From Candidatus Thalassospirochaeta sargassi (GTDB taxonomy: Bacteria; Spirochaetota; Spirochaetia; UBA9216), in contig JAQQAL010000019.1 of NCBI GenBank assembly GCA_028532855.1, forward strand, positions 1 through 33,061: DNA of 33,061 nucleotides. The letters are read 5' to 3'. Positions 13,948 through 32,903 of the stretch are shown here, in pieces. Within the stretch, counting starts at the first letter, position 1, and each line of letters starts with the position of its first letter. The notes under the pieces were generated by a model. The model saw only the letters and a program-made list of their open reading frames with translations. It had not been told where the DNA came from and searched no databases. Made by a program: the position numbers and the translations under genes.

Positions 13948-14094
13948 AAAAATAAGAATAAATTTAAAAAATTTATAATTTACACTGAAAAAAAATTTGA
14001 AAGTGTTATTATTTAAGAATAACAGTACTATTTTATTATTCCACTATGTATAAAAAAGTGTACAATCCTCGACGTTTTAAATCTGATTTTTTTT

Positions 14095-14112
14095 GTAATA
14101 ATCTATTATTAC
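14095..14112. promoter_or_regulatory. 18-bp palindrome upstream of the sigma-54 promoter (possible enhancer site)
   Basis: GTAATAAT-CT-ATTATTAC has perfect 8-bp arms and lies about 80 bp upstream of the predicted start of the sigma-factor transcript. That is a usual distance for a sigma-54 activator site. The surrounding 13948-14158 spacer is very AT-rich, so chance symmetry is possible. Confidence 0.35.
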
Positions 14113-14158
14113 TTATCATATAACAATTTACCCTATTTATAATTGTTTTTGTTGTCTT

Positions 14159-14174
14159 TGGCACATATTTTGCA
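14159..14174 (+). promoter_or_regulatory. Sigma-54 (RpoN) -24/-12 promoter of the sigma-factor gene
   Basis: TGGCACATATTTTGCA matches the sigma-54 consensus TGGCACG-N4-TTGCA with one change. The invariant GG (14160-14161) and GC (14172-14173) are separated by exactly 10 bases. Predicted transcription starts at about 14184-14187. That leaves a very short leader that still includes the GAGG ribosome site (14185-14188) for the ATG at 14197. Confidence 0.72.
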
Positions 14175-14196
14175 TGCATATTATGAGGTGATGCAG

Positions 14197-15036
14197 ATGA
14201 CAAAGAGAACTGAGGTGCAGGATAGTGCCATTAAATCGTATTTCAGACAGATACAGAAGTATCCCCTGCTGGACTTTGAACAGGAAATTGAGCTTTCTAA
14301 AAGAATACAGTCGGGTGATGATACAGCACAGAAAACACTGGTAGAATCTAATCTTCGGCTGGTTGTTAAAATAGCAAAACCATATGTAAGCAAAGATATG
14401 AGCTTCCTTGATGTAATTCAGGAAGGTAATCTAGGCCTTATGAAGGCAGCGGAAAAATATGATTTCAAAAAGAACGTAAGATTTTCGACTTATGCCGCAT
14501 GGTGGATCCGGCAGGCTATTGTAAGAGCAATATCCAATAAAAGGAGACCGATACGGCTCCCCCATAGAAAAGAAGAAATTATAAGAAAGATAAAGCAGGC
14601 ATATTATTCTCTCAGCCAGATTTATAGTCGCGAGCCGACTACAGAGGAGATTGCTGAAGAACTGAAGATTGATGTTAATGAGCTTACAACAATTATTCAG
14701 ATGAGCGGTGATATTGTATCTCTTGACGCTGAAATAAATGAAGATTCAGGCACGCTTATAACAATGTTTGAAGATAAGTCTTTTGAACCGGCAGCAGCCG
14801 TGTTCAATAAATTCATGCGTGCAGACACCCTGAAATCAATGGATATTCTTGGTGAGAAAGAAAGACAGGTTCTCCTCTACCGATATTCTTTCTATGACGG
14901 GAAAAAATACACTTTGAAGAAGATAGGAGATAAATTCGGCATTTCTCCGGAAACAGTCAGGCAGATTGAGATGAGAGCACTGAAAAAACTAAGTAAAGAA
15001 TCTGAAAAACTGCGTGAGTATGTTTACACCGGTTAA
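14197..15036 (+). CDS. Alternative sigma-70-family sigma factor (group 2, RpoS/RpoD-like)
   Basis: The 279-residue factor has regions 1.2 to 4.2 and no region 1.1. Region 1.2 is at about 10-40. Region 2 is at about 48-117, with the core-binding and -10 motifs MSFLDVIQEGNLGLMKAAEKY and RFSTYAAWWIRQAIVRAI. Region 3 is at about 125-200. Region 4 is at about 205-270, with a helix-turn-helix TLKKIGDKFGISPETVRQIEMRAL. The ATG at 14197 has GAGG eight bases upstream; ATGs at 14191 and 14143 are too close to the ribosome site or overlap the sigma-54 promoter. The size and layout resemble Borrelia RpoS. The gene may be a sigma-54-controlled regulator of stress or motility functions. The next gene begins 43 bp later. 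Confidence 0.88.
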   Translation: MTKRTEVQDSAIKSYFRQIQKYPLLDFEQEIELSKRIQSGDDTAQKTLVESNLRLVVKIAKPYVSKDMSFLDVIQEGNLGLMKAAEKYDFKKNVRFSTYAAWWIRQAIVRAISNKRRPIRLPHRKEEIIRKIKQAYYSLSQIYSREPTTEEIAEELKIDVNELTTIIQMSGDIVSLDAEINEDSGTLITMFEDKSFEPAAAVFNKFMRADTLKSMDILGEKERQVLLYRYSFYDGKKYTLKKIGDKFGISPETVRQIEMRALKKLSKESEKLREYVYTG

Positions 15037-15079
15037 AATCAGATTGACGAAAAAGTGTTTTAGTACTACCTTCTAAACA

Positions 15080-16066
15080 GTGAGTGATAAAAAGAAAACA
15101 AAAAGGGGTTTAAGTCTTAAGGGGCTTAAACCCTATTATATTATTATAGGAATAATTATTGTCCTGCTTATTATTATTCTCTCAATGATTAAGAATGTAA
15201 GGCCTGAACCGGCAGAAGAGGTTTATGAAACCTATATTGATCTGGGGCCTGCAGAAACTGCAGTTCCGGAGCATGAAACCTCTACTATCGAAGAAACAGT
15301 GCCGGTAGAATCAGTACCGTCTATTGAGAGAAATCCTGCTTCAATACCTGAAATACCTGAAGTTGAGGACGGTTATACAATGGCTTTTATAATCGATGAT
15401 GTAGGAAACAGTATAGAACAGCTGAAACCCTTCCTTGAGATACCTTACCCGGTAACATTTGCGATAATGCCTGATAGAAAATATACCAGGGAATGTGCTA
15501 CAATGATAAAGGCAGCCGGCAAAGAAATTATACTTCATCAGCCGATGGAATCAGTTGGTGGGGCGGATCCCGGAAAATCGGCAATATATACCGATATGAG
15601 CGAGGCGGAAATTAGAAAAACGCTGGAGCACAACTTTAAGCAGCTTCCCCAGGCTTCCGGGATGAATAATCATATGGGTTCGGCTGCAACTTCGGACGAA
15701 CGGGTTATGAATATAGTAATGGATTATCTGTCGGAGAATGATCTTTTCTTCCTCGACAGTTTTACAATATCAACTAGTCTCGGCAAAGAGGCTGCTAAGA
15801 AGTCTGAAGTCGACTTTATAAAAAGGAATAGTATGTTTTTAGACAATGAAAATGATCATGCATCAATACAGAATGCTATTAACGAAGGAAAAAAAGCAGC
15901 TAAAAAGAACGGACATGCCGTCATGATAGGCCATGTCATGACTGGAGAACTCGCCGAGATAATGCTTGATCTCTATCCAAATTTTATTGAAGACGGCTGT
16001 AGTCTCAAGGAAATTTCCGAACTTTTTATTGAAATGAATTCTTTGGCTGGAGTTGAAGAAGAATAA
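15080..16066 (+). CDS. Divergent polysaccharide deacetylase family protein (YibQ-like)
   Basis: The 328-residue protein has a short basic cytoplasmic N-terminus, one transmembrane helix (about 20-42) and an acidic Pro/Glu-rich linker to about residue 95. A divergent polysaccharide-deacetylase domain follows: MAFIIDDVGNS, PVTFAIMPDRKYT, KEIILHQPME, MNNHMGSAATSD, FFLDSFTIS and AVMIGHVM. The family is related to NodB-type deacetylases; its substrate is not established. It is probably anchored in the inner membrane with the domain in the periplasm. The start is GTG (15080) with no clear ribosome site. It ends one base before the tsaD ATG, so the two are coupled. Confidence 0.85.
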   Translation: MSDKKKTKRGLSLKGLKPYYIIIGIIIVLLIIILSMIKNVRPEPAEEVYETYIDLGPAETAVPEHETSTIEETVPVESVPSIERNPASIPEIPEVEDGYTMAFIIDDVGNSIEQLKPFLEIPYPVTFAIMPDRKYTRECATMIKAAGKEIILHQPMESVGGADPGKSAIYTDMSEAEIRKTLEHNFKQLPQASGMNNHMGSAATSDERVMNIVMDYLSENDLFFLDSFTISTSLGKEAAKKSEVDFIKRNSMFLDNENDHASIQNAINEGKKAAKKNGHAVMIGHVMTGELAEIMLDLYPNFIEDGCSLKEISELFIEMNSLAGVEEE

Positions 16067-16067
16067 C

Positions 16068-17081
16068 ATGCTTGTCCTGGGAATTGAAAGTTCTTGCGAT
16101 GAATGTTCTGCTGCTGTTGTAGAAGACGGTAGAAAGATTCTTAGCAATAACATTGCTACACAGATTGAAATTCATAAGGAATATGACGGTGTTGTACCGG
16201 AAATAGCCTCACGAACCCATACAGAATGGGTAAAAGGCGTAGTAGAGAGTGCATTGACAGAGGCCGGCACCGATCTTGCTAAAATTGACGGTATTTCAGT
16301 TACAAACCGTCCTGGCTTAATAGGTTCGCTTATGGTAGGTCTTTCGTATGCAAAGGGGCTTTCTCTTGCATCGGGGATCCCCTTCATTGGAATTGATCAC
16401 ATCCTTGCCCATCTGTATTCGGCAAGACTCGAGCATGATATAGAATATCCTTTTATAGGTCTTATTGTCTCCGGCGGACATACGATAATATCGGTTGTAC
16501 GTGATTTCGATCATATTGAAGTAATGGGAACAACCATCGATGACGCCTGCGGTGAAGCCTATGACAAGGTTGCAAAGCATTACGGTTTCGGATATCCGGG
16601 AGGCCTGATCATCGATCAGATGGCTCAGAAAGGTGACGACAGGGCTTTTAGTTTTCCAGACCCGTCTCTGCATAAGGGTGAACATCGATATGACGTATCT
16701 TATTCCGGTTTAAAGACTGCGGTAATAAATCAGATTGATCAGTTTCATAATGAAGGTTACGAAAAATCAGAACATAATATTGCCGCGTCATTTCAAAAGG
16801 CTGCTATTACTATGCTGATGAAACGTCTATTCAAGGCTTCGTCGGATACAGGAATTTCCCGGGTAGTCGCCGGCGGGGGCGTTGCTGCAAACTCCTACCT
16901 GCGTTCTATGCTTAGAGATAAGAATAATCTTGAGGTTTACTTTCCTTCAATGGAGCTTTGCACCGATAACGCTGCTATGGTAGCAGGACTGGGATATCAT
17001 TATCTGAAACGTGGAGACCGTTCAGGTTTTGACCTCAGCGCCGGTTCAAGGGTTGAGGGTTTTAGAAAGAAATATCCTTAA
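16068..17081 (+). CDS. tsaD: tRNA N6-threonylcarbamoyladenosine transferase TsaD
   Basis: This is the catalytic subunit that transfers threonylcarbamoyl to A37 of ANN-decoding tRNAs, working with TsaB, TsaE and TsaC. The 337-residue protein begins with the family hallmark MLVLGIESSCDECSAAVV. It has GVVPEIASRTH, the metal ligands H111 and H115 in HILAHLYSA, LIVSGGHT, DDACGEAYDK, GGGVAANSYLR and the metal Asp in CTDNAAM. ATG 16068 gives the canonical N-terminus; a TTG at 16053 would add five residues and overlap the deacetylase. The ribosome site lies in GAAGAAG at the end of the upstream gene. A hairpin 25 bp downstream serves the opposite strand. Confidence 0.96.
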   Translation: MLVLGIESSCDECSAAVVEDGRKILSNNIATQIEIHKEYDGVVPEIASRTHTEWVKGVVESALTEAGTDLAKIDGISVTNRPGLIGSLMVGLSYAKGLSLASGIPFIGIDHILAHLYSARLEHDIEYPFIGLIVSGGHTIISVVRDFDHIEVMGTTIDDACGEAYDKVAKHYGFGYPGGLIIDQMAQKGDDRAFSFPDPSLHKGEHRYDVSYSGLKTAVINQIDQFHNEGYEKSEHNIAASFQKAAITMLMKRLFKASSDTGISRVVAGGGVAANSYLRSMLRDKNNLEVYFPSMELCTDNAAMVAGLGYHYLKRGDRSGFDLSAGSRVEGFRKKYP

Positions 17082-17096
17082 AACAGCCCGCAGTAT

Positions 17097-17122
17097 AAAA
17101 AAAGAGCATCTTAAAAAGATGC
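17097..17122 (-). terminator. Rho-independent terminator of the acetate-transporter gene
   Basis: Read on the minus strand, GCATCTT (17122-17116) pairs with AAGATGC (17112-17106) across a 3-base loop and is followed by a T-rich run (TCTTTTTTT). It lies about 30 bp past the transporter stop, between the convergent transporter and tsaD genes. Confidence 0.8.
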
Positions 17123-17151
17123 CCACCTTAAAAAGAATTGAAGAATTTTGC

Positions 17152-17718
17152 TTAATGAACCATCCCCAGGGGCAGAACTGTCTTTCCGTAGACCTCGTTA
17201 AGTACAAGTGCAATTGCAGTGTAAAAAGCAGATGCACCGCAGAAGATCCCCTCAAATCCGGTGATTATCTTAAGGGTGTGATTACCCGTCCAGTCGCCGA
17301 TAGCAAGCAGAACGAAAAGAATTGTAAGGCTCATGAAGATTGTCTGGTGCGCTCTGCTTATTTTAAGTGTACCAAAGAACATGCAGAGGGTGAAAAGTCC
17401 CCATATAAGCAGATAAAACCCCATGTCGAATGCTGCCGCCGGGGCGACTGCGTCTGCCGGGAGAAGCATCAGGGCAACGAAAGAAAGCCAGAAGAATCCA
17501 TACATGGTAAATGCAGTAGCACCGAATGTGTTGTTAACCTTCCATTCCTGAATACCTGCGATAACCTGGGCGAGACCACCGACGAAAATTCCCATCCCGA
17601 GAATCATTGATTCCAGCGGATAAAACCCCGCGTTATGCATATTCAACAATATTGTAGTCATACCGAAACCAAGCAGACCTAAGGGGGCCGGATTACCGTA
17701 TCCGTGAGCTTGAGACAT
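17152..17718 (-). CDS. Acetate uptake transporter family protein (SatP/GPR1-FUN34-YaaH)
   Basis: The 188-residue protein has six hydrophobic helices and the family signature NPAPLGL at residues 9-15 before helix 1. It belongs to the AceTr family, whose E. coli member SatP is a succinate-acetate/proton symporter or channel in the inner membrane. In a fermenter it could move acetate in either direction. The ATG at 17718 has the strong site GGAGGAAGAT; codons upstream to 17775 overlap the aldolase terminator and are not part of the gene. The gene follows the aldolase gene on the same strand but is separated from it by a terminator, so it needs its own promoter or read-through. Confidence 0.9.
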   Translation of the reverse strand: MSQAHGYGNPAPLGLLGFGMTTILLNMHNAGFYPLESMILGMGIFVGGLAQVIAGIQEWKVNNTFGATAFTMYGFFWLSFVALMLLPADAVAPAAAFDMGFYLLIWGLFTLCMFFGTLKISRAHQTIFMSLTILFVLLAIGDWTGNHTLKIITGFEGIFCGASAFYTAIALVLNEVYGKTVLPLGMVH

Positions 17719-17756
17719 ATCTTCCTCCGTATCAAAAAGTGAAAATCTTATTGCAC

Positions 17757-17785
17757 ATAAAAAACCGCTGCTCAAAGAACAGCGG
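17757..17785 (-). terminator. Rho-independent terminator of the aldolase gene
   Basis: On the minus strand CCGCTG (17784-17779) pairs with CAGCGG (17769-17764) across a 9-base loop, followed by TTTTT. It lies about 50 bp after the aldolase stop and just upstream of the transporter start. Confidence 0.8.
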
Positions 17786-17832
17786 CAAATATTGATGTGT
17801 TAATGATTTATAACCTTAAAAGGTTATTTTGT

Positions 17833-18825
17833 CTATGCCTGATTAGCAGATCCGAGAACATTGATGTTCTTGGCTTTGTAAATTTCCTTGAGAGATTCAC
17901 GTGCGGGTGAAAGGTACTGACGCGGATCAAAATGAGACGGATTTTCCGCCATATGTTTTCTGATAGCCGCAGTCATCGCGAGACGACCGTCAGAGTCAAT
18001 GTTAATCTTACATACAGCTGATTTGGAAGCTGTTCTGAGCTGTTCCTCAGGGATTCCGACAGCGTCCTTTAGTGCACCGCCGTTTTCATTAATAATCTTT
18101 ACCTGATCCTGCGGAACTGAAGAAGAACCGTGAAGAACAATGGGGAAGCCGGGAAGCTTTTTTTCAATTTCTTCAAGAATGTCGAATCGCAGCGGAGGGG
18201 GTACAAGTATTCCTTCGGCATTTCTTGTGCACTGTTCGGGTGTGAACTTGTTTGCACCATGTGAAGTCCCGATTGAGATAGCGAGCGAGTCTACACCGGT
18301 CTTTGATACGAAGTCGATAACTTCCTCAGGCTGGGTGTAGGTTGATTTCTCAGCTACGACATCGTCTTCTATGCCGGCAAGAACACCTAATTCGCCTTCT
18401 ACTGTTACATCATGCTGGTGAGCGTACTCAACAACTTTTTTGGTCAATGCAACGTTTTCTTCATAAGGATGATGCGAACCGTCGATCATAACAGAGGAAA
18501 AACCGTTGTCGATACATTCTTTACAGATTTCGAAATCAGCACCGTGATCAAGATGCAGAACTATAGGAATTTCATATCCTAGTTCTTTCGCATATTCAAC
18601 AGCGCCCTTAGCCATGTTTCTCAATAGGGTACCGTTTGCATATTTTCTTGCACCGGCGGAAACCTGTAATATTACGGGGGATTTTGTTTCAACACATGCC
18701 TGGATAATCGCCTGCATCTGTTCCATGTTATTGAAGTTGTAAGCGGGGATTGCGTATCCGCCTTCAACAGCCTTTGCAAACATATCTTTAGTATTTACAA
18801 GGCCAAGTTCTTTATATGATGTCAT
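17833..18825 (-). CDS. fba: Class II fructose-1,6-bisphosphate aldolase
   Basis: This zinc-dependent glycolytic and gluconeogenic enzyme cleaves fructose-1,6-bisphosphate to dihydroxyacetone phosphate and glyceraldehyde-3-phosphate. The 330-residue protein carries the class II signature VLHLDHGAD (catalytic D93, zinc H94), TVEGELGVLAG, the second zinc histidine H189 in GTSHG and the third H232 in VLHGSSS. NIDSDGRLAM closes the barrel. It resembles the class IIB (Gram-positive-like) form. The ribosome site is AAGGAGTGCAGAAGT before the ATG. It has a recognisable sigma-70 promoter at 18864-18892 and its own terminator, so it is monocistronic. Confidence 0.95.
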   Translation of the reverse strand: MTSYKELGLVNTKDMFAKAVEGGYAIPAYNFNNMEQMQAIIQACVETKSPVILQVSAGARKYANGTLLRNMAKGAVEYAKELGYEIPIVLHLDHGADFEICKECIDNGFSSVMIDGSHHPYEENVALTKKVVEYAHQHDVTVEGELGVLAGIEDDVVAEKSTYTQPEEVIDFVSKTGVDSLAISIGTSHGANKFTPEQCTRNAEGILVPPPLRFDILEEIEKKLPGFPIVLHGSSSVPQDQVKIINENGGALKDAVGIPEEQLRTASKSAVCKINIDSDGRLAMTAAIRKHMAENPSHFDPRQYLSPARESLKEIYKAKNINVLGSANQA

Positions 18826-18863
18826 ACTTCTGCACTCCTTTAAGTTTGGTTGATATCGCTTTC

Positions 18864-18892
18864 AGGTTAATCACAGATGTTTATGATGTCAA
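18864..18892 (-). promoter_or_regulatory. Sigma-70-type promoter of fba
   Basis: On the minus strand TTGACA (18892-18887) is separated by 17 bases from TAACCT (18869-18864). The -35 is perfect and the -10 keeps the most conserved T, A and final T. It lies about 40 bp upstream of the aldolase start. The remainder of the gap to 18992 shows no clear ribosome site for the divergent gene. Confidence 0.5.
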
Positions 18893-18991
18893 GGTAAACA
18901 AAAGTCAATTGAACGTTATCTAATGATATTGGGAAAGAAAATTGACCAGTCAAGCTTGCATAATTTACGCCATGCGGATAGCATTGAATTA

Positions 18992-19897
18992 ATGAAGTTT
19001 TCAAGCCTGTTTTTATTTATGCTAATCATTTTTCTAATACCTCTCTTTTCGGCCGTGGCTGCCGACATTACACTTATTACCGATCAGTACTGGAATAGTA
19101 TTCTTGAGGCTGAGCTAAATAGTGACCCATTGAGAGAGTTTATCGATGAGATAAGAAACAGCATCGCGTTTTTGTCATCCTCAAAGCTTCGTTTGCCTGA
19201 GGGGGGTGTTGAGAGAGTGATAGTTGACATAGGCCCAACAATGAGCATTGATGCTCTGGAGAATGCTGTCCCTGCTGGTGAGGGGATAATAATTCTGAGC
19301 CCGCTTTATGCGGTTTATGGCTGTGAACTGGCTTCTAATAATCCCGAAAGCTTTTTTATTATCGCAGGAGACAATGAATCGTCTGAATGTTCAGCGGCTA
19401 ATATTGCCTTTTTCCGTTTTGATTATACCGATGCATGCCGTGAAGCGGGGGTTAGGGCTGCAGGAATGAATGTAGTGACCGCTGTAATGCTCTATAAGGG
19501 AAATGAATATTATTCGGCGCGGGGAGAGTCATTTATAGAAGGTTGGGTAAGTATTAGAAATATTGATGAGCTTTTTATAACTGAATTTGCCGATATAAAG
19601 GATGTAGAGTCTGATATGATCGATGAATTCGAGGATTATACTATAAAAGAAAGCGGTCTTGCCGTAGTTTTCGCAGGACCGCACAACGGTACCGTCCTTG
19701 ACAGGTTTGACGGCAGTGAGGTAAAGCTTGCGGGTGAGTATTTAGACAGCTGGACGCGGACCGGCTATAAGACCTGCATGTCGGTGGAGCTCGGACCATC
19801 ATTGATTCTGGGTGAAATCCTAAAATCTATCAGAGCCGATACTTACACAGTCGGCGGCATCATTAAGGCTGAACTTTTTTTCTATGACGAACAATGA
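18992..19897 (+). CDS. Secreted protein of unknown function, periplasmic-binding-protein-like
   Basis: I do not recognise a named family. ATG 18992 yields 301 residues starting with a signal peptide (MKFSSLFLFMLIIFLIPLFSAVAA, cleavage near 24). An in-frame ATG at 18923 would put 23 polar residues before it, so the later start is preferred, though neither has a clear ribosome site. The body alternates hydrophobic strands and helices (VERVIVDIGPTMSID, GIIILSPLYAVYG, SFFIIAGDN, GLAVVFAGPHNGTVLDRF). ARGESFIEGW resembles the fold of basic-membrane-protein/LacI-like sugar- or nucleoside-binding proteins. No lipobox cysteine follows the signal, so it is probably soluble in the periplasm. Its stop is only 14 bp before the flaA promoter. 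Confidence 0.7.
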   Translation: MKFSSLFLFMLIIFLIPLFSAVAADITLITDQYWNSILEAELNSDPLREFIDEIRNSIAFLSSSKLRLPEGGVERVIVDIGPTMSIDALENAVPAGEGIIILSPLYAVYGCELASNNPESFFIIAGDNESSECSAANIAFFRFDYTDACREAGVRAAGMNVVTAVMLYKGNEYYSARGESFIEGWVSIRNIDELFITEFADIKDVESDMIDEFEDYTIKESGLAVVFAGPHNGTVLDRFDGSEVKLAGEYLDSWTRTGYKTCMSVELGPSLILGEILKSIRADTYTVGGIIKAELFFYDEQ

Positions 19898-19911
19898 TTA
19901 TAGAAAAAGAT

Positions 19912-19940
19912 TTGACAAACATATTCGTAAGAAATATAAT
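19912..19940 (+). promoter_or_regulatory. Consensus sigma-70 promoter of the flaA operon
   Basis: TTGACA (19912-19917) is separated from TATAAT (19935-19940) by exactly 17 bases, a perfect match at all 12 consensus positions. It lies 53 bp before the first flaA start. This predicts strong, housekeeping-sigma transcription of the sheath proteins rather than sigma-28 control. Confidence 0.88.
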
Positions 19941-19992
19941 TCAGAATGTCTAGCATTTTGTGACTTTTGTACTACATTAAGGAGTAAAAATA

Positions 19993-20712
19993 ATGAAACG
20001 AGGTAGCATCCTTTTCCTGTGTATTTTACTCGCCATGGCTTTTGTTATTCCATCGACGGTTTTTGCCGACGAATCAACAGAAAATCTGGTTTCCACGGTT
20101 GTCGAAAGCTTCGACCCGGCTGACAGAACCAGCGATTGGCTTGTATTGGGCAGTAAATTTATAACCGAAGGTTACCCGAAGCAGATTTATGCCGAAGCCT
20201 GGCCTGAAGCACTTTGGGGATATAACACTGAGCAGAATGATTATCAGGTCCTGGGTATTAACGCCAGATTCGACCGACAGGGATATAATTATCTTGAGAT
20301 TATCCCTGTTGTAGACGCTGAGGCTGAAGAGTGGGAACATAATCCGATTCCTATGAAGGGCAGAGTAAAACGATTCGACTGCTGGGTATGGGGGTCAGAA
20401 TATGATTACAGTATCGAAATGCATCTGATGGATTATAATGGTATCAACTGGGTTCTTCCGCTGGGAAATCTCAAATATACCGGGTGGAAAAACCTGGCGG
20501 TTGAAATACCGAATTATATTCCTCAGGCAACAAAATACATACCTTATTACAAGCAGATGACATTCGAAAAACTTGTAATCTGGACTGCTCCTCAGGAATC
20601 AGTTCATGAATATTATGTATATATCGACCAGCTCAAGATTCTGACTGATATGTTCGAGTCAAGATTTGACGGTGATACATTGACCTGGCCTGAAAGAGTC
20701 GATGAAATGTGA
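19993..20712 (+). CDS. flaA: Flagellar filament outer-layer (sheath) protein FlaA, first copy
   Basis: FlaA proteins form the sheath around the FlaB core of spirochete periplasmic flagella. The 239-residue protein has a Sec signal peptide (MKRGSILFLCILLAMAFVIP..., cleavage after VFA near residue 25), unlike the FlaB flagellins that use the flagellar exporter. The mature part has the FlaA family pattern: FDPADRTSDWLV, YLEIIPV, the RVKRFDCWVWGSEYDYSIEMHLMDY strand pair, GNLKYTGWKNLAVEIPNYIPQ and YVYIDQLKILTD. The ribosome site is AAGGAG. It has a perfect promoter and is followed 8 bp later by a second flaA. It and the second copy are clearly homologous but diverged. Confidence 0.92.
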   Translation: MKRGSILFLCILLAMAFVIPSTVFADESTENLVSTVVESFDPADRTSDWLVLGSKFITEGYPKQIYAEAWPEALWGYNTEQNDYQVLGINARFDRQGYNYLEIIPVVDAEAEEWEHNPIPMKGRVKRFDCWVWGSEYDYSIEMHLMDYNGINWVLPLGNLKYTGWKNLAVEIPNYIPQATKYIPYYKQMTFEKLVIWTAPQESVHEYYVYIDQLKILTDMFESRFDGDTLTWPERVDEM

Positions 20713-20720
20713 GGTGAAGA

Positions 20721-21440
20721 ATGAGAAATTCTATAAAAAAAACACTAATTATACTAATTATACTTGCCGTATCTGCGACAGGGGTATTTGCTCAGAGCAG
20801 GGTCGGCGAGCCGGATCCTTCCCAGATAGGCGTTGATACTGCTCAGCAGGAACTTCGCGAGATTTCAATATCAAAATTTGAAGATGCGGGGATGTGGAGA
20901 AGTCAGATGCCGCGCGATGCTGGTATTACTTCTGTAAGAAAGATTAAGGGAAGCCCTCTTGATAAAGAGCCTATAGAAGGTGAAGAGGAAGTAGGTATAC
21001 AGGAAGCAGATGATTACGTACTTGGTGTAAGAGCGAACTTCTACAAGAGATCAGTCACCTCTTTTTCAATTCTTCCCTCAAAACCGATGGCCGTTGAAGG
21101 TATCTGCAAGACTGTATCAGTCTGGGTTATCGGAAGAAATACTGATCATATGCTGAAGCTTTTAATTAAAGATCAGTTTGGAAACAGGGCAGAGGTTACC
21201 ATGGGAAAACTCAACTTTGCCGGCTGGAAAAAGATGACAGTAGCTATTCCTACACATATCGTTCAGAAAGACTATCACTATGCTAACAAGATGGGAATTG
21301 AAATTCTCGGTTTCAGGGTTGATTGTGATCCGGCAGAAACCTACGGTGCCTACTACATCTACTTTGATGATCTCAGAGCTACTACAGACCTTTTTACTGA
21401 AAACAACAGAGACGTTGATGATATAGCAGACGTCTGGTAG
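20721..21440 (+). CDS. flaA: Flagellar filament outer-layer (sheath) protein FlaA, second copy
   Basis: The 239-residue paralogue of the upstream gene also has a Sec signal peptide (MRNSIKKTLIILIILAVSATGVFA, cleavage after residue 24). Family landmarks are ISKFEDAGMWRSQMP, SFSILPSKPM, CKTVSVWVIGRNTDHMLKLLIKD, GKLNFAGWKKMTVAIPTHI and YYIYFDDLRATTDLF. Relative to the first copy it carries an acidic insert around residues 80-95. The ribosome site is GTGAGGTGAAG. The two gene products may occupy different parts of the filament or form a mixed sheath. It is followed by the OmpA-domain gene only 5 bp later, with a terminator just inside that gene. Confidence 0.92.
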   Translation: MRNSIKKTLIILIILAVSATGVFAQSRVGEPDPSQIGVDTAQQELREISISKFEDAGMWRSQMPRDAGITSVRKIKGSPLDKEPIEGEEEVGIQEADDYVLGVRANFYKRSVTSFSILPSKPMAVEGICKTVSVWVIGRNTDHMLKLLIKDQFGNRAEVTMGKLNFAGWKKMTVAIPTHIVQKDYHYANKMGIEILGFRVDCDPAETYGAYYIYFDDLRATTDLFTENNRDVDDIADVW

Positions 21441-21445
21441 GTTTG

Positions 21446-22681
21446 ATGTATAAGCAATTTACAGGGTTCCTTCTGCGAAGGAGCCCTTTTTTTATTTTTA
21501 CCTTCCTGATGTGTATCAACGGTCCTTTCTGTCTTTATGCAGATACTGAAGAGGGGATTCTTTTCAGCTTCGGAAGCAGCAGCAAGTTGAAAATAACCGA
21601 GCGTTCTAATGTAAGTGTATACGAGAACGGGGTTTTTAAAGGGCTGACATATAACGAGTCGAGGGCTGTGCTTGAATACATGTGGCGTGAGGATGGTTTT
21701 TCGCAGTATTCAGGAAATTATTATGTTTATGAGGCATCCAGAAAGGATACCAGACTTATTGCAAACCCACTTAACCTTAACGAGATCTGTACTATAGAGA
21801 TAAGTGACAGGGGAGTGTACCGAACCGAGCCGGAAGCAGTTGTTCCGGTTCTGCGCAGTTTTCCGGTGTTCCCTGAAAAAGGAATCCAGGCGGGAGACAG
21901 CTGGCGGGATTACGGTGAAAGAATAGTGGATCCTGAAAACAGTGGGACCTTTACCAGGGTCAGGTTTTTTTGCGAGTACCGCTACCAGGGCATAGAAAAT
22001 GGTCGAAGCGGTACCAAACACGTAATAAACGCGCAGTATGCAATGCGATACGATCCCGGTGATTCAGCTTTAGCAGATCCTTCTCTTGATAAGATATCCG
22101 GCAGACATGTTGTAAACATCTATATAGACGTAGATGATAGATCATCCATATTTATAAGAGATAAGCTTGATGAACAGTATAATTATTCAGATGGTAAAAT
22201 TCTTCGGCATACCGGCTTTATTCTTACCTGGTATAATGATGTAATAGGACTCGACAGGACTGAGATTACAGAGAAAACGAAGAAAAGCATCGATGAGTAT
22301 GATATTAAAGATGTTGATGTGATTGAGAAGGACGAGGGCATTGCTTTGAGTATCAACAGTCTTCATTTTATTCCTGATTCTCCGAAGCTTCTAGCGGGAG
22401 AAAATGCAAGACTGAAAGATATCTATGGATTACTGTCAGAGCTCGATCTATCGAAGATCCTGGTGGTCGGGCATACAGCAGATGTCGGAAGCATTGAAAG
22501 TCAGAATGAACTGTCGAAGCTGCGTGCGCTAACTGTAATAGAAAAACTAACAGATATGGGGATGAACCCGTCCATGTTTATGTACGAAGGCCGGGGAGGT
22601 GATGAGCCGGTTGCAGATAACGGGACTGATGAGGGGCGAGCTGCAAACCGGCGTGTAGAATTGATCCTGCTTGACGATTAA
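21446..22681 (+). CDS. OmpA-domain envelope protein
   Basis: The 411-residue protein starts at ATG 21446 (a TTG three bases earlier is less likely). The signal peptide is KQFTGFLLRRSPFFIFTFL... cleaved near LYA (about residue 33). Residues 35-290 are a beta-rich region of unknown fold. An OmpA/MotB C-terminal domain (about 300-408) follows: IFLP-like LHFIPDSP, LVVGHTADVGS, LSKLRALTVIEKL, EGRGGDEP and GRAANRRVELILL. GHTADVG is a common variant, and the Arg in NRRVE that contacts diaminopimelate is kept, so it probably binds peptidoglycan from the periplasm or outer membrane. It follows the flaA genes, which might suggest anchoring near the flagella, but an intrinsic terminator lies within its signal-peptide codons. 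Confidence 0.87.
   Translation: MYKQFTGFLLRRSPFFIFTFLMCINGPFCLYADTEEGILFSFGSSSKLKITERSNVSVYENGVFKGLTYNESRAVLEYMWREDGFSQYSGNYYVYEASRKDTRLIANPLNLNEICTIEISDRGVYRTEPEAVVPVLRSFPVFPEKGIQAGDSWRDYGERIVDPENSGTFTRVRFFCEYRYQGIENGRSGTKHVINAQYAMRYDPGDSALADPSLDKISGRHVVNIYIDVDDRSSIFIRDKLDEQYNYSDGKILRHTGFILTWYNDVIGLDRTEITEKTKKSIDEYDIKDVDVIEKDEGIALSINSLHFIPDSPKLLAGENARLKDIYGLLSELDLSKILVVGHTADVGSIESQNELSKLRALTVIEKLTDMGMNPSMFMYEGRGGDEPVADNGTDEGRAANRRVELILLDD
21463..21493 (+). terminator. Intrinsic terminator/attenuator inside the OmpA-domain gene
   Basis: AGGGTTCCTTC (21463-21473) pairs with GAAGGAGCCCT (21477-21487) over 11 bp with one G-U pair and a 3-base loop, then a run of seven T (21487-21493), A and five more T. 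This is a textbook Rho-independent terminator. It lies 22 bp after the second flaA stop and within codons 6-16 of the next gene. Confidence 0.85.
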
Positions 22682-22701
22682 AAGATGAGTGACCTGGAAT
22701 C

Positions 22702-23487
22702 TCAGGATATTCTGAATAGGGTCTCAAAGTTGGTTTTAACCGCTGCTATAAGCTCAATGAGAGGTATACCGCGCAATTCTGCTATACAGCTGTAGGTGTA
22801 TCCGATATGACCTGGATGGTTTCGCTTGCCCCGAACCATCTGCGGGCTGAGGTACGGAGCATCGGTTTCAATGAGCAGACTGTCTAAGGGTACTGCCGCA
22901 GCCGATTCTTTGATAACTCCGGCATTTTTGTAGGTGACGTTTCCCGCAAATGATATGTTATATCCCAAGTCTATAAATTGCTGCGCGGTTTCCGGTGAAT
23001 ATGAATAACAATGAATAATACCAGCTCGATCGACGCGGTTTTCATCAAGCAGTTTCAGGGTCTCCGCTTCTGCATTACGGCTGTGAATAATTACCGGCAG
23101 ATTAAGGCGGTTTGCAATGTTTATCTGTCTTTTTACAAGCTCAGCCTGTAGTTCGAAGCTCCCGTAATCATGATAAAAATCGAGACCAATCTCACCCAGA
23201 GCAACAGCCTTATTATCGTTGATAAGGGTCTGTTCAAGATATTCAAGCTCAGATTCGAGGTCGTCAGAATTGCATTGAGATGGATAATATCCGTGGGCTG
23301 TATATAGCCCTTTAAGCTCTGCGGCGGTTTTTATGCGGTCTTCGAAGTTATCAGCGTTAATGCCTATATCAAGTGCATAAACTAGTCCTTCATCAAAACT
23401 ATGTTTTATTAAATCCATATACGGCATTTCAAGCTTTTTCATGTGAAAAAGATGAAAATGTGAGTCTAACATGTTTTCTTTCAGCAT
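22702..23487 (-). CDS. tatD: TatD-family metal-dependent hydrolase
   Basis: The 261-residue TIM-barrel protein belongs to the TatD DNase-like amidohydrolase family. Expected metal ligands are visible: H10 and H12 (LDSHFH), Glu in ALGEIGLDFYHD, His in VIIHSRNA, His in IIHCYS, and Asp in LIETDAPYL. Members have 3'-5' DNase activity in several species, but the physiological role is unsettled. The start overlaps the stop of the upstream GGDEF/HD-GYP gene (TGATG), so they are translationally coupled. The gene converges with the OmpA-domain gene 20 bp away, with no terminator visible between. Confidence 0.92.
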   Translation of the reverse strand: MLKENMLDSHFHLFHMKKLEMPYMDLIKHSFDEGLVYALDIGINADNFEDRIKTAAELKGLYTAHGYYPSQCNSDDLESELEYLEQTLINDNKAVALGEIGLDFYHDYGSFELQAELVKRQINIANRLNLPVIIHSRNAEAETLKLLDENRVDRAGIIHCYSYSPETAQQFIDLGYNISFAGNVTYKNAGVIKESAAAVPLDSLLIETDAPYLSPQMVRGKRNHPGHIGYTYSCIAELRGIPLIELIAAVKTNFETLFRIS

Positions 23488-25403
23488 CAGCCTTGTTTTT
23501 CCTTTATGAATTGAATGAATCTACCGGCTATTTCAGGATCAAATTGTTTGCCGGAGCATCGGCGTATTTCATTAGCCGCCTCTGTAAATGACAGGCTCGG
23601 CTTGTAGGTTGATCCGTTAATAAGAAGTTCCCAGGTATCGATTATAGAAAATAGTCTGCAAAGAAGGGGAATATCTTTTCCCTTGAGTCCTGAAGGATAA
23701 CCCTGTCCGTCCCATCTTTCATGATGATGAAGGATTAGATCAGCCACGGAGGAATAATCAGGAATAGCTTTTGTTATTCGATAACCTATAATCGGGTGCT
23801 GTTTTATCTCGTCATATTCTGTTTCAGAGAGTCTGTCGCTCTTTGACAAAATCTCGTTTGAAAGCCTGATGTTTCCGATATCATGAAGCAGGGCAAGATT
23901 CTTTATTTTTTTAACAGAGTCCTTAGGCAGGTTTAAGAATACTGCAAAATCAATTGAAAGTTTAATGCAGTTTTCTGTGTGATTTTTGGACTGCTGACCG
24001 TGTATCTGCATTGAGTTTAAAATATCGGAAATAAGAGTATTCAAATGTTCTGTGCGTCTTTCAAGCTTCATGTCATACATGCGCTTGTCGGCCAGTTTTA
24101 TAATATCATCGATTGTCTGTGAATTATCTGTTCTTTCAGCGCTTCCGATGGATACGCTAGGTCTGGCGAATATATCGTCAAAATGACGTTCAAGACATGC
24201 CCTGCGGATTCTCTCGGATAATTTTTCTGCTTTTTCCCTCGGACTTTTTGGGAGTATGATAGCAAACTCATCACCGCCTGTACGGGCGATTACATCGCTT
24301 TTTCGACAGTTAGCTGATAGAATGTTTGAGACTGCCAGAAGCAGCTTATCGCCGAAGTCGTGTCCGAATGCGTCGTTTATCAATTTAAGGCTGTTAACAT
24401 CAATCACAAGAATTGATGTCGGAAGTGATTCCCGGGATTGATCAATTCGGTTACATTCCTCTTCAAAGTAAGCCCTGTTATAGAGCCCGGTAAGTTTATC
24501 ATGAAAACTTCGATGAAGTATTTCCTTTTCGCGGCTCTTATGTGTGCTTATATCGCGTATGATACAGACTGTTTCAGTGTCGGTTGTCTGAATAAACCTG
24601 CAGTCATAAAATTTTTCAGTCTTACCTGATTTATCAACATATTCAAAGTTACGCTGTACGCCCTGTTCTGTAAGCATATCGCAGTTTGTCATAATCATCC
24701 CGGAAAGTTCAGGTGAAAATACTTCTGTAACCATGCGGCCTTCAGGGTACTCGATATTACTTAGGACATTAAAATCAGCTGCCGGATGGTAATCCAGTAT
24801 TTTACCTTCATTATCGATGATGAGCAGAAAGTCAGGAATAAGATCCAGAAGGGCGCGGGCACGCTGCTGACTTCTTTCAAGCGCGCGCTCAACATCCTTG
24901 CGCATCGTAATATCAAGTTCGATCTCGATGGTCCCAGTCATTTTCCCATTGTCATCAATTACCGGTTGGGATGAAACAAGGATAGTTGTACCGTCAGGAT
25001 GAGAAACCTCTTCTTTCCATGGCCAGTTTGTTTTGATAGTTGTCTCAACCGGACAGGACGGGCAAGGTTCACTGCGGTTATACCAGACTTTATAGCATGT
25101 CTGACCAATTATATCATTGATACTAACCTTATCCCCAACATTTCGAAGACCTGCATCATTAATCCATTTTATTTTGTAGTCAAGATCCAGATAACAGACT
25201 TTTTCAACAAGGCTGTTCAGAATCTGTTCTTTTTCGCGCTCTGATTCATTCATTGATTCAAGGATTACGGAATTTAGAAATTCTCTTTTATTGAAACCGG
25301 TTGCCTCTGACTCAACATCACTGGATTCAATTTTTTCATTGAGTTCTTTCAGTTGTTTTCTAATAGCATCTATGCCGTCGTGAAATGGCAGTATTTTCAT
25401 CAA
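23487..25403 (-). CDS. PAS-PAS-GGDEF-HD-GYP cyclic-di-GMP signalling protein
   Basis: The 638-residue soluble protein has an N-terminal coiled coil (about 10-65) and PAS 1 (about 65-168), with CPSCP at 114-118. PAS 2 is at about 180-286. GGDEF spans about 297-450, with intact GGDEF at 376-380 and an inhibitory site R367-x-x-D370. The HD-GYP domain is at about 465-635. The synthase half looks active. The HD-GYP half keeps H507-D508, H536, HHH 559-561, GYP 568-570 and D589. However, the usual HDxGK lysine is Asn511, and the later DxxDA segment is DTWELL. It could both make and degrade c-di-GMP under PAS control, for example of motility. It lies 47 bp after the exporter operon on the same strand without a terminator. 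Ribosome site weak. Confidence 0.88.
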   Translation of the reverse strand: MMKILPFHDGIDAIRKQLKELNEKIESSDVESEATGFNKREFLNSVILESMNESEREKEQILNSLVEKVCYLDLDYKIKWINDAGLRNVGDKVSINDIIGQTCYKVWYNRSEPCPSCPVETTIKTNWPWKEEVSHPDGTTILVSSQPVIDDNGKMTGTIEIELDITMRKDVERALERSQQRARALLDLIPDFLLIIDNEGKILDYHPAADFNVLSNIEYPEGRMVTEVFSPELSGMIMTNCDMLTEQGVQRNFEYVDKSGKTEKFYDCRFIQTTDTETVCIIRDISTHKSREKEILHRSFHDKLTGLYNRAYFEEECNRIDQSRESLPTSILVIDVNSLKLINDAFGHDFGDKLLLAVSNILSANCRKSDVIARTGGDEFAIILPKSPREKAEKLSERIRRACLERHFDDIFARPSVSIGSAERTDNSQTIDDIIKLADKRMYDMKLERRTEHLNTLISDILNSMQIHGQQSKNHTENCIKLSIDFAVFLNLPKDSVKKIKNLALLHDIGNIRLSNEILSKSDRLSETEYDEIKQHPIIGYRITKAIPDYSSVADLILHHHERWDGQGYPSGLKGKDIPLLCRLFSIIDTWELLINGSTYKPSLSFTEAANEIRRCSGKQFDPEIAGRFIQFIKEKQG

Positions 25404-25450
25404 TAACTAATTTAATAAATTTCCTTAAAATAATCCACAGGTAAGCATTT

Positions 25451-26734
25451 TTACTCGTATCGAAGGGCTTCATGAGGTATAAGTTTTGCCGCGCGGGCAG
25501 CCGGGTAGAAGCCTGAGAGCAGTCCGGTCACAAGTGAGAGTATAACCGCAGCGGCGGCTGTTCCCGGATCCATTATAACAGGCCAGGAGGCGGCTTTACC
25601 AATGATAAATGCTGCAAGAACCGACAGGCCCAGCCCGCCTAAGCCCCCGCCCCCGCAAAGTATCAGCGTCTCGATTAGAAACTGCAGTCGTATATCGGAT
25701 TCCCTGGCCCCGAGGGCCTTACGTATGCCTATTTCACGCGTGCGTTCTTTTACCGAGACAAGCATTATATTCATGATGCCTATGGCGGCAACCAGCAGTG
25801 CTATGCCAGCGAGCACTGCAACTCCAATTGTAATTGTTGTTATAACAGTGTTTATCATTTCAAGTTGTTCCTTCATTGAAGTAACACTGAATTTATCTGT
25901 CTGCTCGTTCCATTTACCATGATTGCGAGCCAGCACCCTTAGGATCTCGGATCGGGCCCTTGGTATATCTTCAATTGAAGTGGCCTTTGCCATTACATCC
26001 CAGTAGCTGCCGTCTCCGCCGAAAAGACGCTTGAACAATGATATAGGAACTACAAAGGCATTGTTAAATGTTTCATCAGGGTTTGAAAGTGATACAGTGT
26101 CTGTTTTTTCCTTATATTCAAGAACGCCTACTATTTTGACCGGGACACCGAAAGCCCTGATGTATTGTCCTACAGCGTCGGAATCGGGGAAAAACTCTTC
26201 TTTAATCAAATGTCCGATTATAGCGACCTTTTCCTGCCGTTCAACCTCGTCAGTGGTCATGATCCGGCCTGATTCAAGTTTCACATCGACATATTCTATA
26301 TAGGCCTCCGTAGTGCCGGTAACGGTAAGCTGCTTTTCCCTGTCTCCGGCTTTGAGTTCGGTTTTCATTTGCTGAAGAGGGGCTATTGCAGTCAGGTGGG
26401 GCGCATATTCTTCAAGATCCTCTATGTCCCGAGCGCTTAGTGTGTCAATTTTATAAGAGCGGTTTAGGCTGTATGCCTCCCAGTTTATACCGATCTGAAG
26501 AGCAGTGGGACTTAAGCCCTCAAATTCCTTCATTATTATTGAGCGACCGCCGGCTCCGGCTGCAAGCACCGTAATAACTGATGAAATGCCTATTACAATA
26601 CCAAGAAGGGTAAGAACAGTTCTTGATTTATTTGAGATGATTGCGGATCCTGCTTCTGTGAGTAGGTTGTTGACTTTTACCCGATTTTTTCGTTTGCTGT
26701 TTTTATCCTGATTTACGCTGTTTCCTGCTGTCAT
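25451..26734 (-). CDS. ABC transporter permease, MacB/FtsX type (second permease)
   Basis: The 427-residue protein has the MacB layout. A cytoplasmic N-terminus is followed by transmembrane helix 1 (SRTVLTLLGIVIGISSVITVLAAG, about 39-62) and a periplasmic MacB-PCD domain to about 290. Three helices at the C-terminus form an FtsX domain ([54 protein letters not shown]). The ribosome site is AGGAGGTATCT. It ends the exporter operon, 9 bp after the paralogous permease. The pair probably forms a heterodimer powered by the ATPase at 27955. It acts as a mechanotransmission-type exporter through the adaptor and outer-membrane channel; the substrate is not evident. Confidence 0.9.
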   Translation of the reverse strand: MTAGNSVNQDKNSKRKNRVKVNNLLTEAGSAIISNKSRTVLTLLGIVIGISSVITVLAAGAGGRSIIMKEFEGLSPTALQIGINWEAYSLNRSYKIDTLSARDIEDLEEYAPHLTAIAPLQQMKTELKAGDREKQLTVTGTTEAYIEYVDVKLESGRIMTTDEVERQEKVAIIGHLIKEEFFPDSDAVGQYIRAFGVPVKIVGVLEYKEKTDTVSLSNPDETFNNAFVVPISLFKRLFGGDGSYWDVMAKATSIEDIPRARSEILRVLARNHGKWNEQTDKFSVTSMKEQLEMINTVITTITIGVAVLAGIALLVAAIGIMNIMLVSVKERTREIGIRKALGARESDIRLQFLIETLILCGGGGLGGLGLSVLAAFIIGKAASWPVIMDPGTAAAAVILSLVTGLLSGFYPAARAAKLIPHEALRYE

Positions 26735-26743
26735 AGATACCTC

Positions 26744-27958
26744 CTAGGCATCTGAACGGAGCGCTTCAACCGGCATCAGCCGCGACGCTTTCCATGCCGG
26801 ATATATTCCGAAGACAAGACCTATAAATGTAGAGATACCAAGGGCTCCAGCGACTATGACGAAGCTCAGCATGAACTTCCATTCAAGAATACTGCAGACA
26901 ACTGCAGCGAGCACTGCGCCGAAGAATACACCGGTAGCGCCGCCGATAAGGCAGAGGACGATTGCTTCAATAATGAACTGAACTACTATGTCTGTTTTTG
27001 TTGCACCTACTGCCATCCGTATGCCTATCTCCCTTGTCCGCTCGGTCACCGCAACAAGCATAATATTCATTATCCCAAGGCCTCCCACTACGATTGAAAT
27101 AGCTGCAATAACCGTCACGAGGGTAGTGATAATGTTCAGAATCCTGTCAATCATTCCAACAAATGAATCAAGACGCTGCACCCTGAACCTCGGAAGATCT
27201 CTAAGCAGACCATATTTTTTTTCAAGATATGAATTAATTCGCTCTTCGGCGATCTCTACGTTTTCAATTGAATCGAATTTAAAAAGATAGATCCAGTATT
27301 TTACAAAATTACCGCCCCAGATTTTTGCGCCCACAAGACTGTCTGGTATGAAGATTGTATTGTTGTCGGAGCCGTCCGATAGGAGCATATTGTTGGCTCT
27401 TTCGGTGACACCAATGACGGTGTAATTTCTTTCAGACAGCCTGATAACCTTTCCCAGCGGGTCCTCATCTTTGAACAGCCTGGCGGCGATATCCGGCCGG
27501 ATAACGCAGACCCGCTTTCTGAGGCTGATATCCTGTTCGATAAATGTACGGCCCTTTTCAATTTTGGAATCGAACATTTCAAAATGCCCGGGACCTACAC
27601 CTAAAACCTGTGCTTCCTTTGATTCTCCCATATAGGCGGCTGTATAGGTTTCAGAAAAGAGGGTGCCGGAAGACTGAAGGCCGGGCAGGGCCTGTTTGAA
27701 GAATTTGATGTCTCTGCCGTCCATAAGTATACGTGATTCACCCTTCAGATAGGAGTTTCCGTCAACCTGAACCCATAACAGGGTTGAGCCGTAACGGCCT
27801 ACCTCGCTGCCGACTGAATCGCGGAATGCGAGCCCTATAACGGATATAGCAATGAGGCAGCCGACACCGAAATTGATACCCAGGATGGTTAGAACCGCCC
27901 GAATTTTATTTCCGCCCATTACGGAAATCGATTCGCGCAGCCCCTCGGTAATTTTCAT
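26744..27958 (-). CDS. ABC transporter permease, MacB/FtsX type (first permease)
   Basis: The 404-residue permease is paralogous to the next gene. It has an N-terminal helix ([28 protein letters not shown]), a large periplasmic domain with the MacB-PCD pattern ([37 protein letters not shown]) and three C-terminal helices with [30 protein letters not shown]. The start overlaps the stop of the ATPase gene by four bases (ATGA), so expression is coupled. Having two permeases rather than one fused MacB with an ATPase indicates a heterodimeric transporter. Efflux of a drug, peptide or lipid-like compound are all possible. Confidence 0.9.
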
Positions 27959-28752
27959 TCAACACTCTCCTGACTTTTATGAACATTCGAGTGCAGCGAC
28001 ATCGCTTCTTCCAGGTCCTGCTTGTTCAGGTCGGCAAGGTTGCGGATAGCCGCTGCGGCGTTTGCCGGTTTTTTAACCGCTTCATCGCCGTGAATCTGTC
28101 CGTCGCGCAGATGGATAATTCTTTTGCCGTGAAGGGCAATGTCCATTTCGTGGGTGACCATTACGATGGTCGCCCCTTCCTCATGGAGCTTCTGAAACAG
28201 GGCCATGATATTCAAACCGGTTCGCGAATCTAGGTTGCCTGTCGGTTCGTCTGCAAAGATGATGCTGGGACTGTTTACAAGCGCCCTCGCTATGGCCACA
28301 CGCTGACGCTGACCACCCGACAGTTCATTAGGCTTATGGCCGGCCCTGTCGGAGAGTTCAACCCGGTCGAGTGCTATGTCTGCCATGCGGCGGCGTTCCT
28401 TCGCGGAATAGCCCGAGTAGATGAGCGGCAGTTCTACATTCTTTCGTGCCGATATTCGCGGCAGCAGGTTGAAAGTCTGAAAGACAAAGCCTATCTGTTT
28501 ATTACGTACTGCCGCAAGCTGTTCATCTGCAAGCCCTGATACGTCTTTGCCGCCGAGATGGTAGCTGCCTGCAGACGGTCTGTCGAGACAGCCGATAATA
28601 TTCATAAGGGTTGATTTTCCGGAGCCTGAAGCTCCCATAATGCAGAGGAAATCATGCTCGCTTATATCAAGGCTGACTCTGTTCAGGGCACGGACCTCAA
28701 TGTTGCCCATTTTGTATATTTTATCTATGTCTCTAAGCTCTATTATAGCCAA
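27955..28752 (-). CDS. ABC transporter ATP-binding protein, MacB/LolD type
   Basis: The 265-residue cytoplasmic ATPase has Walker [10 protein letters not shown] (40-48), Q-loop Q92, the signature LSGGQ (144-148), Walker B IIFADEP with D168 and E169, D-loop GNLD, and H-loop H201 in VTHEMD. All catalytic residues are intact. It has the LolD/MacB-subfamily features ([28 protein letters not shown]). A basic/acidic tail of about 35 residues extends past the usual end ([13 protein letters not shown]...), possibly a partner contact. It is co-transcribed with the adaptor gene (14-bp gap) and overlaps the first permease by four bases. Confidence 0.95.
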
Positions 28753-28766
28753 AATTAACCTGCCTG

Positions 28767-30080
28767 TTATTTATCTTCGTTTTTATTCTTTTTATTTTTT
28801 TCATCGGCGAGCATCACTTCCATCCCGTCTTCGACGCCGGGTACCCGCCCCGAAAGAATCAATTCTCCGGCTGCCAGCCCATCGGTTACCTCAATATTTT
28901 CAATGTCGAGTATGCCTGTCTCGATTCTCCGTTTTTCTACCTTGAAATATCCGGGGTTTTCAGGGTCTTCATCTTCAAGGGGGATTAGAACAAAAATGTA
29001 TTTTTCATTCTCTTCAATGAAGTAGGCTTCTACCGGGATTGCCGGCTGCTGCAGCCTTTTATCTACTATGATGAAAATAGAAGCGCTTGCCCCGATTCTA
29101 GCCGCACCATCAGGGTTTTCAAGCAGGTCCACCTCAATTTCGCAGACTCTCGAGTCTCCGACCTTTCTTATTATTGGTGCGATTTTAGAAACTCTGCCTG
29201 CTATTTCAGTGCCCAGGAAGGAATCGGATATTATCTTCACTTCCTGTCCGGTTTTAATGTATGAAAGATCGACCTCGTCTATCATAGCCTCAACAATGAG
29301 CTGTTGTTCATCATGAATCTCCGCCATCAACATTCCGGGTTCCACAACAGAATTTTTGTCTACATTAAGGGCGGTGAGAGTTCCGCCGGAGTCGGTTTTA
29401 ATTTCATAGTATTTGAGGTTTTTCAGGCTTATATCGTAATCTGAAAGAGCCTTCTTTACCTCGGGCGAAGATTCAACTATTTCATCATCGGTTTTAAAAT
29501 TATTTATCCGGTTGTCATCAAGTTCTCTGCCCTCTCTGAAGTTCAGTTTCTGTCTTGCAGATTCAAGGGTTTCTTCTGCAATTATCAGCTGTTCTTCAAC
29601 AAGTTTTAGTTCTTCATCGCTTACCGAACCGATTTTATGCAGCTCTGAGGTCCTTTCCCATTCACGTTCGGTCTGGGCCCAGCCTGCAAGGGCGCTTGAA
29701 TATGCTCCTCGAAGGTTCAATAACTCTGATCTGACTATCATTCTTGCATTGATAACTGCGTTCTCAGCATTTATAAGATTGTTTTCAAGGCTTTCACGAT
29801 TAAGCCTGATGATGATGCTGTCTTTCTCTATGAGTTCCCCCTCTTCGGCGGTAACCTCATCAACCGATGCTGAAACAGCAGCAAATATCCGGGTGTACTC
29901 CCTGGAGTTTATATCACCATTGGCAGTGACCTCACGGATAAAATCCTGCAGTATCACATCAACTGCGCTTACTTCCATTGGTCTTTGACGGTTTTTTGAA
30001 ATTATGCTGACTGTCACAATTGCTGCAATCACAGCTAACACAACTGCGAATATTATTATCTTTTTTCTGTTCATATTCAC
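28767..30080 (-). CDS. Periplasmic adaptor (HlyD/MacA-type membrane fusion protein)
   Basis: The 437-residue protein has an N-terminal membrane anchor (about 5-27, [20 protein letters not shown]). It has half-lipoyl segments around 60-80 ([26 protein letters not shown]) and 230-265 ([24 protein letters not shown]). A helical hairpin lies between (about 90-225), and beta-barrel and membrane-proximal domains follow. It links the MacB-type permeases to the outer-membrane channel. It shares a four-base overlap with the TolC-like gene (stop at 30077, start at 30080). A lysine- and glutamate-rich tail ends the protein. The inner-membrane pump partner is identified by gene order and family. Confidence 0.92.
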
Positions 30081-31564: not shown

Positions 31565-31585
31565 CTTATTTCTTCTCCGAGCCTT

Positions 31586-32347: not shown

Positions 32348-32453
32348 TTTTCCATCCTTTTTGGTTTCTGATAATAAATACAGTTTATCCTATAAATTAT
32401 TCATATAAAATTAAAAAATCACAATATTAGTGTACTAAAAAAGTAGAACACAA

Positions 32454-32482
32454 ATGTTGCAACCATAAAGCCAAACTGTCAA
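32454..32482 (-). promoter_or_regulatory. Possible promoter of the exporter operon
   Basis: On the minus strand a perfect TTGACA (32482-32477) is followed after 17 bases by CAACAT (32459-32454), only a partial -10 match. It lies in the 159-bp gap between the DsrE-like and Yip1-like genes and would give a leader of roughly 100 bases. The rest of that gap is AT-rich with no other clear signal. Confidence 0.3.
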
Positions 32483-32506
32483 CATTCTTTTAACAGTTTA
32501 AATCTT

Positions 32507-32851: not shown

Positions 32852-32874
32852 ATTTCCTCCGTTTACTATGAAGC

Positions 32875-32903
32875 ATATTAGGATATAGCTTGCTGTACGT
32901 CAA
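32875..32903 (-). promoter_or_regulatory. Sigma-70-type promoter of the DsrE-like gene
   Basis: On the minus strand TTGACG (32903-32898) is separated by 17 bases from TAATAT (32880-32875). It lies 24 bp before the ATG at 32851, so the leader is about 17 bases. The -35 is only 20 bp from the IS boundary at 32923. Confidence 0.6.

Follow-up and report, generated by a model that had tools for sequence, protein, structure and literature searches.

The window (the whole stretch of 33,061 nucleotides that was analysed, from Candidatus Thalassospirochaeta sargassi) carries on its plus strand two consecutive genes for flagellar filament outer layer proteins, flaA1 (19993..20712; PF04620, 4.2e-28) and flaA2 (20721..21440; PF04620, 3.4e-39), the latter ending in the stop codon TAG at 21438-21440. 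Upstream of the pair, a consensus sigma-70-like promoter (TTGACA-N17-TATAAT, 19912..19940, plus strand) was found as a pattern match only, with 12 of 12 hexamer positions matching. A 324-codon open reading frame on the same strand (18923-19897), located 5' of flaA1, has a hydrophobic stretch on its N-terminal side and gave no Pfam or NCBIfam match. flaA2 is followed by the gene of an OmpA-domain envelope protein (21446..22681, plus strand; hereafter ompA), which was assigned from the open frame, a Pfam match in its C-terminal part (PF00691, 4.9e-14, residues 308-402) and an ATG that keeps its position in 4/4 congeners. When searched against solved structures, the protein matched the generic C-terminal OmpA domain only (Tpn50, 3oon, being among the hits). 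Its signal peptide is encoded by MYKQFTGFLLRRSPFFIFTFLMCINGPFCLYA (21446..21541, plus strand), with the cleavage site placed by eye.

The first codons of ompA contain a stem-loop at 21463-21487 of the plus strand (AGGGTTCCTTC-TGC-GAAGGAGCCCT; 11 bp, six of them GC, and a 3-nt loop), which is directly followed by seven T at 21487-21493, the first T doubling as the last base of the stem. The stem is separated from the flaA2 stop TAG by 22 nt (21441-21462), and counted from ATG 21446 as codon 1, the stem-loop with its T run occupies codons 6-16 (the stem-loop codons 6-14). The first-pass annotation had given the same stem, loop, T run, codon range and distance to the second flaA stop, all of which matched the sequence exactly. 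It had further claimed that the amino acids encoded across the hairpin form a valid signal peptide, and by eye and hydropathy the hydrophobic core does begin in the U tract, which supplies its opening Phe-Phe codons. The frame from 21446 to 21493 has no in-frame stop codon, and the terminator thus sits inside an open frame, as in a translation-dependent attenuator, in which the reading frame covers or abuts the terminator.

With a GC-rich stem, a short loop, an immediate U tract and a conserved position behind flaA2, the element has the features of an intrinsic (Rho-independent) terminator. In a terminator scan of 14000-33061 it was listed first among 30 terminator-like sites (11 pairs, 6 GC). 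Folding of 21420-21530 (z -2.34) gave the complete hairpin in the minimum-energy structure as well as in the centroid, and revealed no competing antiterminator; the isolated stem has an energy of -17.0 kcal/mol. Among 2000 dinucleotide shuffles of the 120 nt 3' of the flaA2 stop, one contained a site of equal quality. A bidirectional terminator was ruled out, since the stem is not preceded by an A run that would give the minus strand a U tract.

As a background, terminators were collected on both strands of 433 kb (20 sampled stretches plus the window). This yielded 36 terminators, eight of them in long open frames and three within the first 60 codons, namely the 21463 hairpin, a weak one in L174 and one in L170, where the real start probably lies after the hairpin. 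At L174:10681 (G003), a gene for an exported protein has a weaker hairpin (11 pairs, 4 GC) and a T run in its signal peptide codons. The window holds a second hairpin of 13 pairs at 15105-15134 (plus strand), in codons 9-18 of an open frame from GTG 15080 and just 5' of a membrane segment; it occupies the same place in four of five genomes of the genus (own included), has no U tract and is missing from G002 as well as from G006 of the family.

Selection on the hairpin and its tie to flaA2

Selection on the hairpin was analyzed in four congeners (G000, G001, G003 and G004, the window's genome included). Within the hairpin, the codon was identical at 7 of 7 conserved residues; in the mature protein this held for 30 of 192 (Fisher p 5e-6), and third positions were identical in 9 of 11 versus 45 of 371 cases (p 5e-7). 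Among 399 windows of 11 codons, conservation peaks at codons 7-17, and the signal peptide is strongly diverged among the four congeners save for the hairpin codons. Because protein selection alone leaves the identical codons unexplained, these patterns are read as RNA-level selection: judged by sequence comparison, the hairpin is under selection for RNA structure inside a coding region, and the overlap is beyond chance. The ompA frame as a whole is under protein-level constraint, as residues are kept at codons whose third positions are poorly conserved.

The 3' ends of flaA2 genes were surveyed across the class, in which 222 of 394 genomes gave flaA2 matches at E<=1e-40. Among the best 130 loci of these matches, 22 have an OmpA-domain gene next to flaA2 and 108 have another context; one of the latter (L043, with 33 nt of tail) was left out, leaving 107. 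In this set of best loci, 85 of the 107 of other context had a terminator-like hairpin that begins no more than 120 nt past the flaA2 stop. Under a stricter rule it was found in 77 of these 107 (shuffle mean 0.85) and in 20 of the 22 ompA-adjacent loci (shuffle mean 0.35). None of ten OmpA-domain orthologs located away from flaA2 had the hairpin; L027, L028 and L030, whose matches begin inside the protein, and L026, which is cut by a contig end, were left out of these ten. Since the hairpin is kept behind flaA2 in either context and is missing from the ten non-adjacent orthologs, the terminator evidently belongs to flaA2, whether or not ompA is next. The survey and the congener comparison thereby strengthened the earlier proposal of a terminator-like element tied to flaA, and the comparison did the same for an envelope gene that lies behind it and has its signal peptide coded by the hairpin.

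Spread of the overlap

An embedded hairpin, with the reading frame starting before it and using it as signal-peptide DNA, was found in 15 of the 22 ompA-adjacent loci and in six families: five species of the window's family (four of its own genus), one locus each in f2, f5 and f16, four in f6 and three in f25. Six of the 22 have their start after the hairpin, and L042 is ambiguous. A 23rd adjacent locus, L017, stems from the first survey and is of the separate kind. Stem sequences vary between families and the U tract is read in all three phases; in the embedded loci the residues that it encodes, FF, FL, LF or the like, open the hydrophobic core.

Several of these assignments have a weak point. 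L048 (f16) has a strong stem and just three T in a row, i.e. no U tract; L058 requires a TTG or GTG start; the start of L062 lies inside flaA2; L040 has a TTG 3' of the hairpin that is in principle usable as a start; and L131 (G036) has an in-frame ATG inside the hairpin, 62 nt past the flaA2 stop. This internal ATG of L131 would by itself yield a good signal peptide.

On a tree of 32 proteins, at least four changes between the embedded and other states were counted, and both kinds stand side by side in two families. The tree does not include L026, L027, L028 and L030, and L042 was coded as separate although its only canonical start, a GTG, precedes the hairpin. A single origin of the overlap was ruled out by these changes; as reconstructed, it was gained or lost several times and is not required for the flaA2–ompA pair. 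Such overlaps may arise easily, as a poly-U tract would encode Phe, Leu, Ile or Val in any frame, and residues such as Arg, Gly and Pro, for which the GC-rich arms code here, should be tolerated in the n-region of a signal peptide.

Probable readthrough of the terminator and its possible control

All four congeners, counting the window's genome, have ATG 21446 in the identical position. In two of them (L032 and L033) there is no ATG, GTG or TTG from the hairpin to the mature region, and in our judgement a usable signal peptide would be lost from the later ATG of the window (codon 22) and from the later TTG codons of L034; signal peptides were judged by eye and hydropathy, not by a dedicated predictor. 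An internal promoter near the end of flaA2 appeared as a weak pattern match only (21234-21262), and no block of codon conservation was seen in the last flaA2 codons (same codon at 4 of 18 conserved residues, codons 217-236). A promoter located 3' of the hairpin would not restore ompA expression, because its transcript would have neither the start codon nor the signal peptide. Transcripts starting past the hairpin thus miss both, those starting before it cross the terminator, and readthrough is therefore needed: as far as the DNA tells, every mRNA for the exported OmpA-domain protein must pass the terminator. As the frame is under protein-level constraint and hence presumably expressed at some level, readthrough must take place to some extent. 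None of our inferences is stronger, and it holds regardless of how readthrough would be controlled.

The reading that we favour, and consider moderately probable, is that the intrinsic terminator of the flaA operon lies within the start of ompA and acts as an attenuator through partial readthrough. By sequence, the OmpA-domain gene starts between the flaA2 stop and this hairpin, with stem and U tract encoding its signal peptide. RNA polymerase would mostly halt at the hairpin, and the fraction that reads through would provide the ompA mRNA; that most flaA transcripts end here, as had been suggested in the first-pass annotation, is plausible. The terminator would thereby attenuate ompA expression, in a fixed or weakly tunable way, and hold the level of the OmpA-domain protein low compared with FlaA. 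A ribosome starting from ATG 21446 on a terminated transcript would come to the end of the mRNA without encountering a stop codon and would depend on ribosome rescue; a tmRNA is encoded in the genome (G000:C52:37563-37924, 148.8 bits). The weak ribosome-binding site of ompA would fit this scheme, since non-stop translation on terminated mRNA is best avoided.

Attenuation by readthrough is likely, and regulation of it by translation is possible but minor. Under such translational regulation, ribosomes starting at ATG 21446 or ending flaA2 would block folding of the hairpin, so that ompA expression reports translation status, and we regard this as unlikely to be the main mode of control. Of the 15 embedded loci, 10 have a start-to-stem spacing of 14-18 nt, about the reach of an initiating ribosome. 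As a proof of coupling this spacing was rejected and is suggestive only, the other five loci having 5, 5, 5, 11 and 50 nt. The Shine-Dalgarno match of ompA in the window is weak (-6.4 kcal/mol), coupling to flaA2 being possible, and the binding sites at embedded starts are weak in general, with a median of -3.5 kcal/mol in the 15 loci compared with -10.0 kcal/mol for flaA2 (best of several candidate starts), which may point to inefficient ribosome loading. A weak site does not mark embedding, as no significant difference from the separate loci was obtained (median -3.5 vs -5.5, p 0.33, 15 vs 5 loci). The 22 nt between flaA2 stop and stem are also ordinary for the genome, in which 19 sampled terminators have 18-125 nt (median 29), and in six of the 15 embedded loci this distance is 45-53 nt, beyond the reach of the flaA2 ribosome.

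In an E. coli study (PMC4824070), terminators located within the initial 100 bp of a coding region were judged by the authors to be efficient. When placed 30 bp inside the open frame of a second cistron, a terminator lost just ~10% of its efficiency to translation of that frame. The upstream protein decreased to roughly half of its level, an effect that the authors attribute to non-stop translation of the terminated mRNA. At short distance, a ribosome ending the upstream gene did repress the terminator, the TE at 17-18 nt being ~0.12 or ~0.8 depending on the series, and ~0.9 beyond 30 nt (PMC4824070). Going by these values, the flaA2 stop at 22 nt from the stem would fall within the zone of partial repression, and a ribosome finishing flaA2 would be a better candidate for such repression than one starting at 21446. 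Of the earlier idea that ribosomes from 21446 hold the hairpin open, the geometry is retained, whereas the poor Shine-Dalgarno match and the ~10% loss in the E. coli work (PMC4824070) leave it weak.

Alternatively, the overlap could be passive, with a full terminator into which the gene has crept, so that ompA is barely expressed and the overlap has no regulatory role. Such an overlap would cost little, poly-U being hydrophobic in any phase; it has been gained or lost repeatedly on the tree, and the flaA2 terminator is there with or without ompA. Nevertheless, we hold this to be quite improbable, as the protein-level constraint on ompA implies expression and, with no usable start past the hairpin, expression implies readthrough. 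A real start after the hairpin (another or non-canonical codon with its own promoter, the hairpin lying merely in a 5' UTR) agrees with the post-hairpin starts of 6 of the 22 adjacent loci and with rare start codons that the sequence allows, but was rejected as the main reading and is very improbable given the ATG at +6 in all four congeners, the two congeners without a later canonical start before the mature region, the hydrophobic core starting in the U tract and a flaA2 end whose codon conservation gives no hint of an internal promoter.

Relation to known systems and significance

Attenuation by partial readthrough between neighbouring genes is reportedly exemplified by frd-ampC of E. coli, in which a partial intergenic terminator separates the cistrons and the hairpin is said to precede ampC. 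The flaA2–ompA arrangement resembles it in that the terminator of an upstream operon would limit a downstream gene, and differs in that the hairpin lies within the coding region and encodes a signal peptide.

As with the pyrBI attenuator, a translated frame overlaps the terminator and ribosome effects are possible. In pyrBI, however, that frame encodes a short leader peptide, and its pause sites enforce coupling (PMC4824070), whereas the frame here is the gene itself. A similar layout was engineered in plasmid W48 (Li et al. 2015, PMC4824070), in which the frame of a second cistron enters an intrinsic terminator ~30 bp past its start; that construct is synthetic and was studied in E. coli, while the present case is natural and conserved and its expression would need readthrough. 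In arfA of E. coli and brfA of B. subtilis, a terminating hairpin inside the open frame likewise gives non-stop mRNA, but the truncated product is the active protein (PMC8012679, in part). Here the U tract ends after just 16 codons, which encode part of the signal peptide only, and the OmpA domain lies at residues 308-402.

RNA 3' ends internal to open frames are common in the spirochaete Borrelia burgdorferi and in E. coli, and the portions of these 3'-end studies considered here mention no conserved dual use as terminator and signal peptide (PMC10319736, PMC7815308). Keyword matching of titles and abstract starts in a limited library found no terminator used as signal-peptide DNA. Gene prediction and terminator prediction, each used by itself, would reveal only half of the overlap.

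A broader formulation, to which we give somewhat less than even credence, is that of a dual-coding element in at least six families, which would be selected at both levels, with its leak setting the ratio of FlaA to the OmpA-domain protein and non-stop peptides, from starts on terminated mRNAs, passing to tmRNA, and of terminators beside genes for exported proteins as a general raw material for signal peptides. The compatibility of signal-peptide coding with U tracts would have a concrete reason in what such tracts encode. As embedded and separated versions occur in sister species, they offer a natural replicate test of terminator function in the first codons of a gene. For the spirochaetes, the arrangement suggests a possible fixed-ratio control of flagellar sheath versus envelope proteins.
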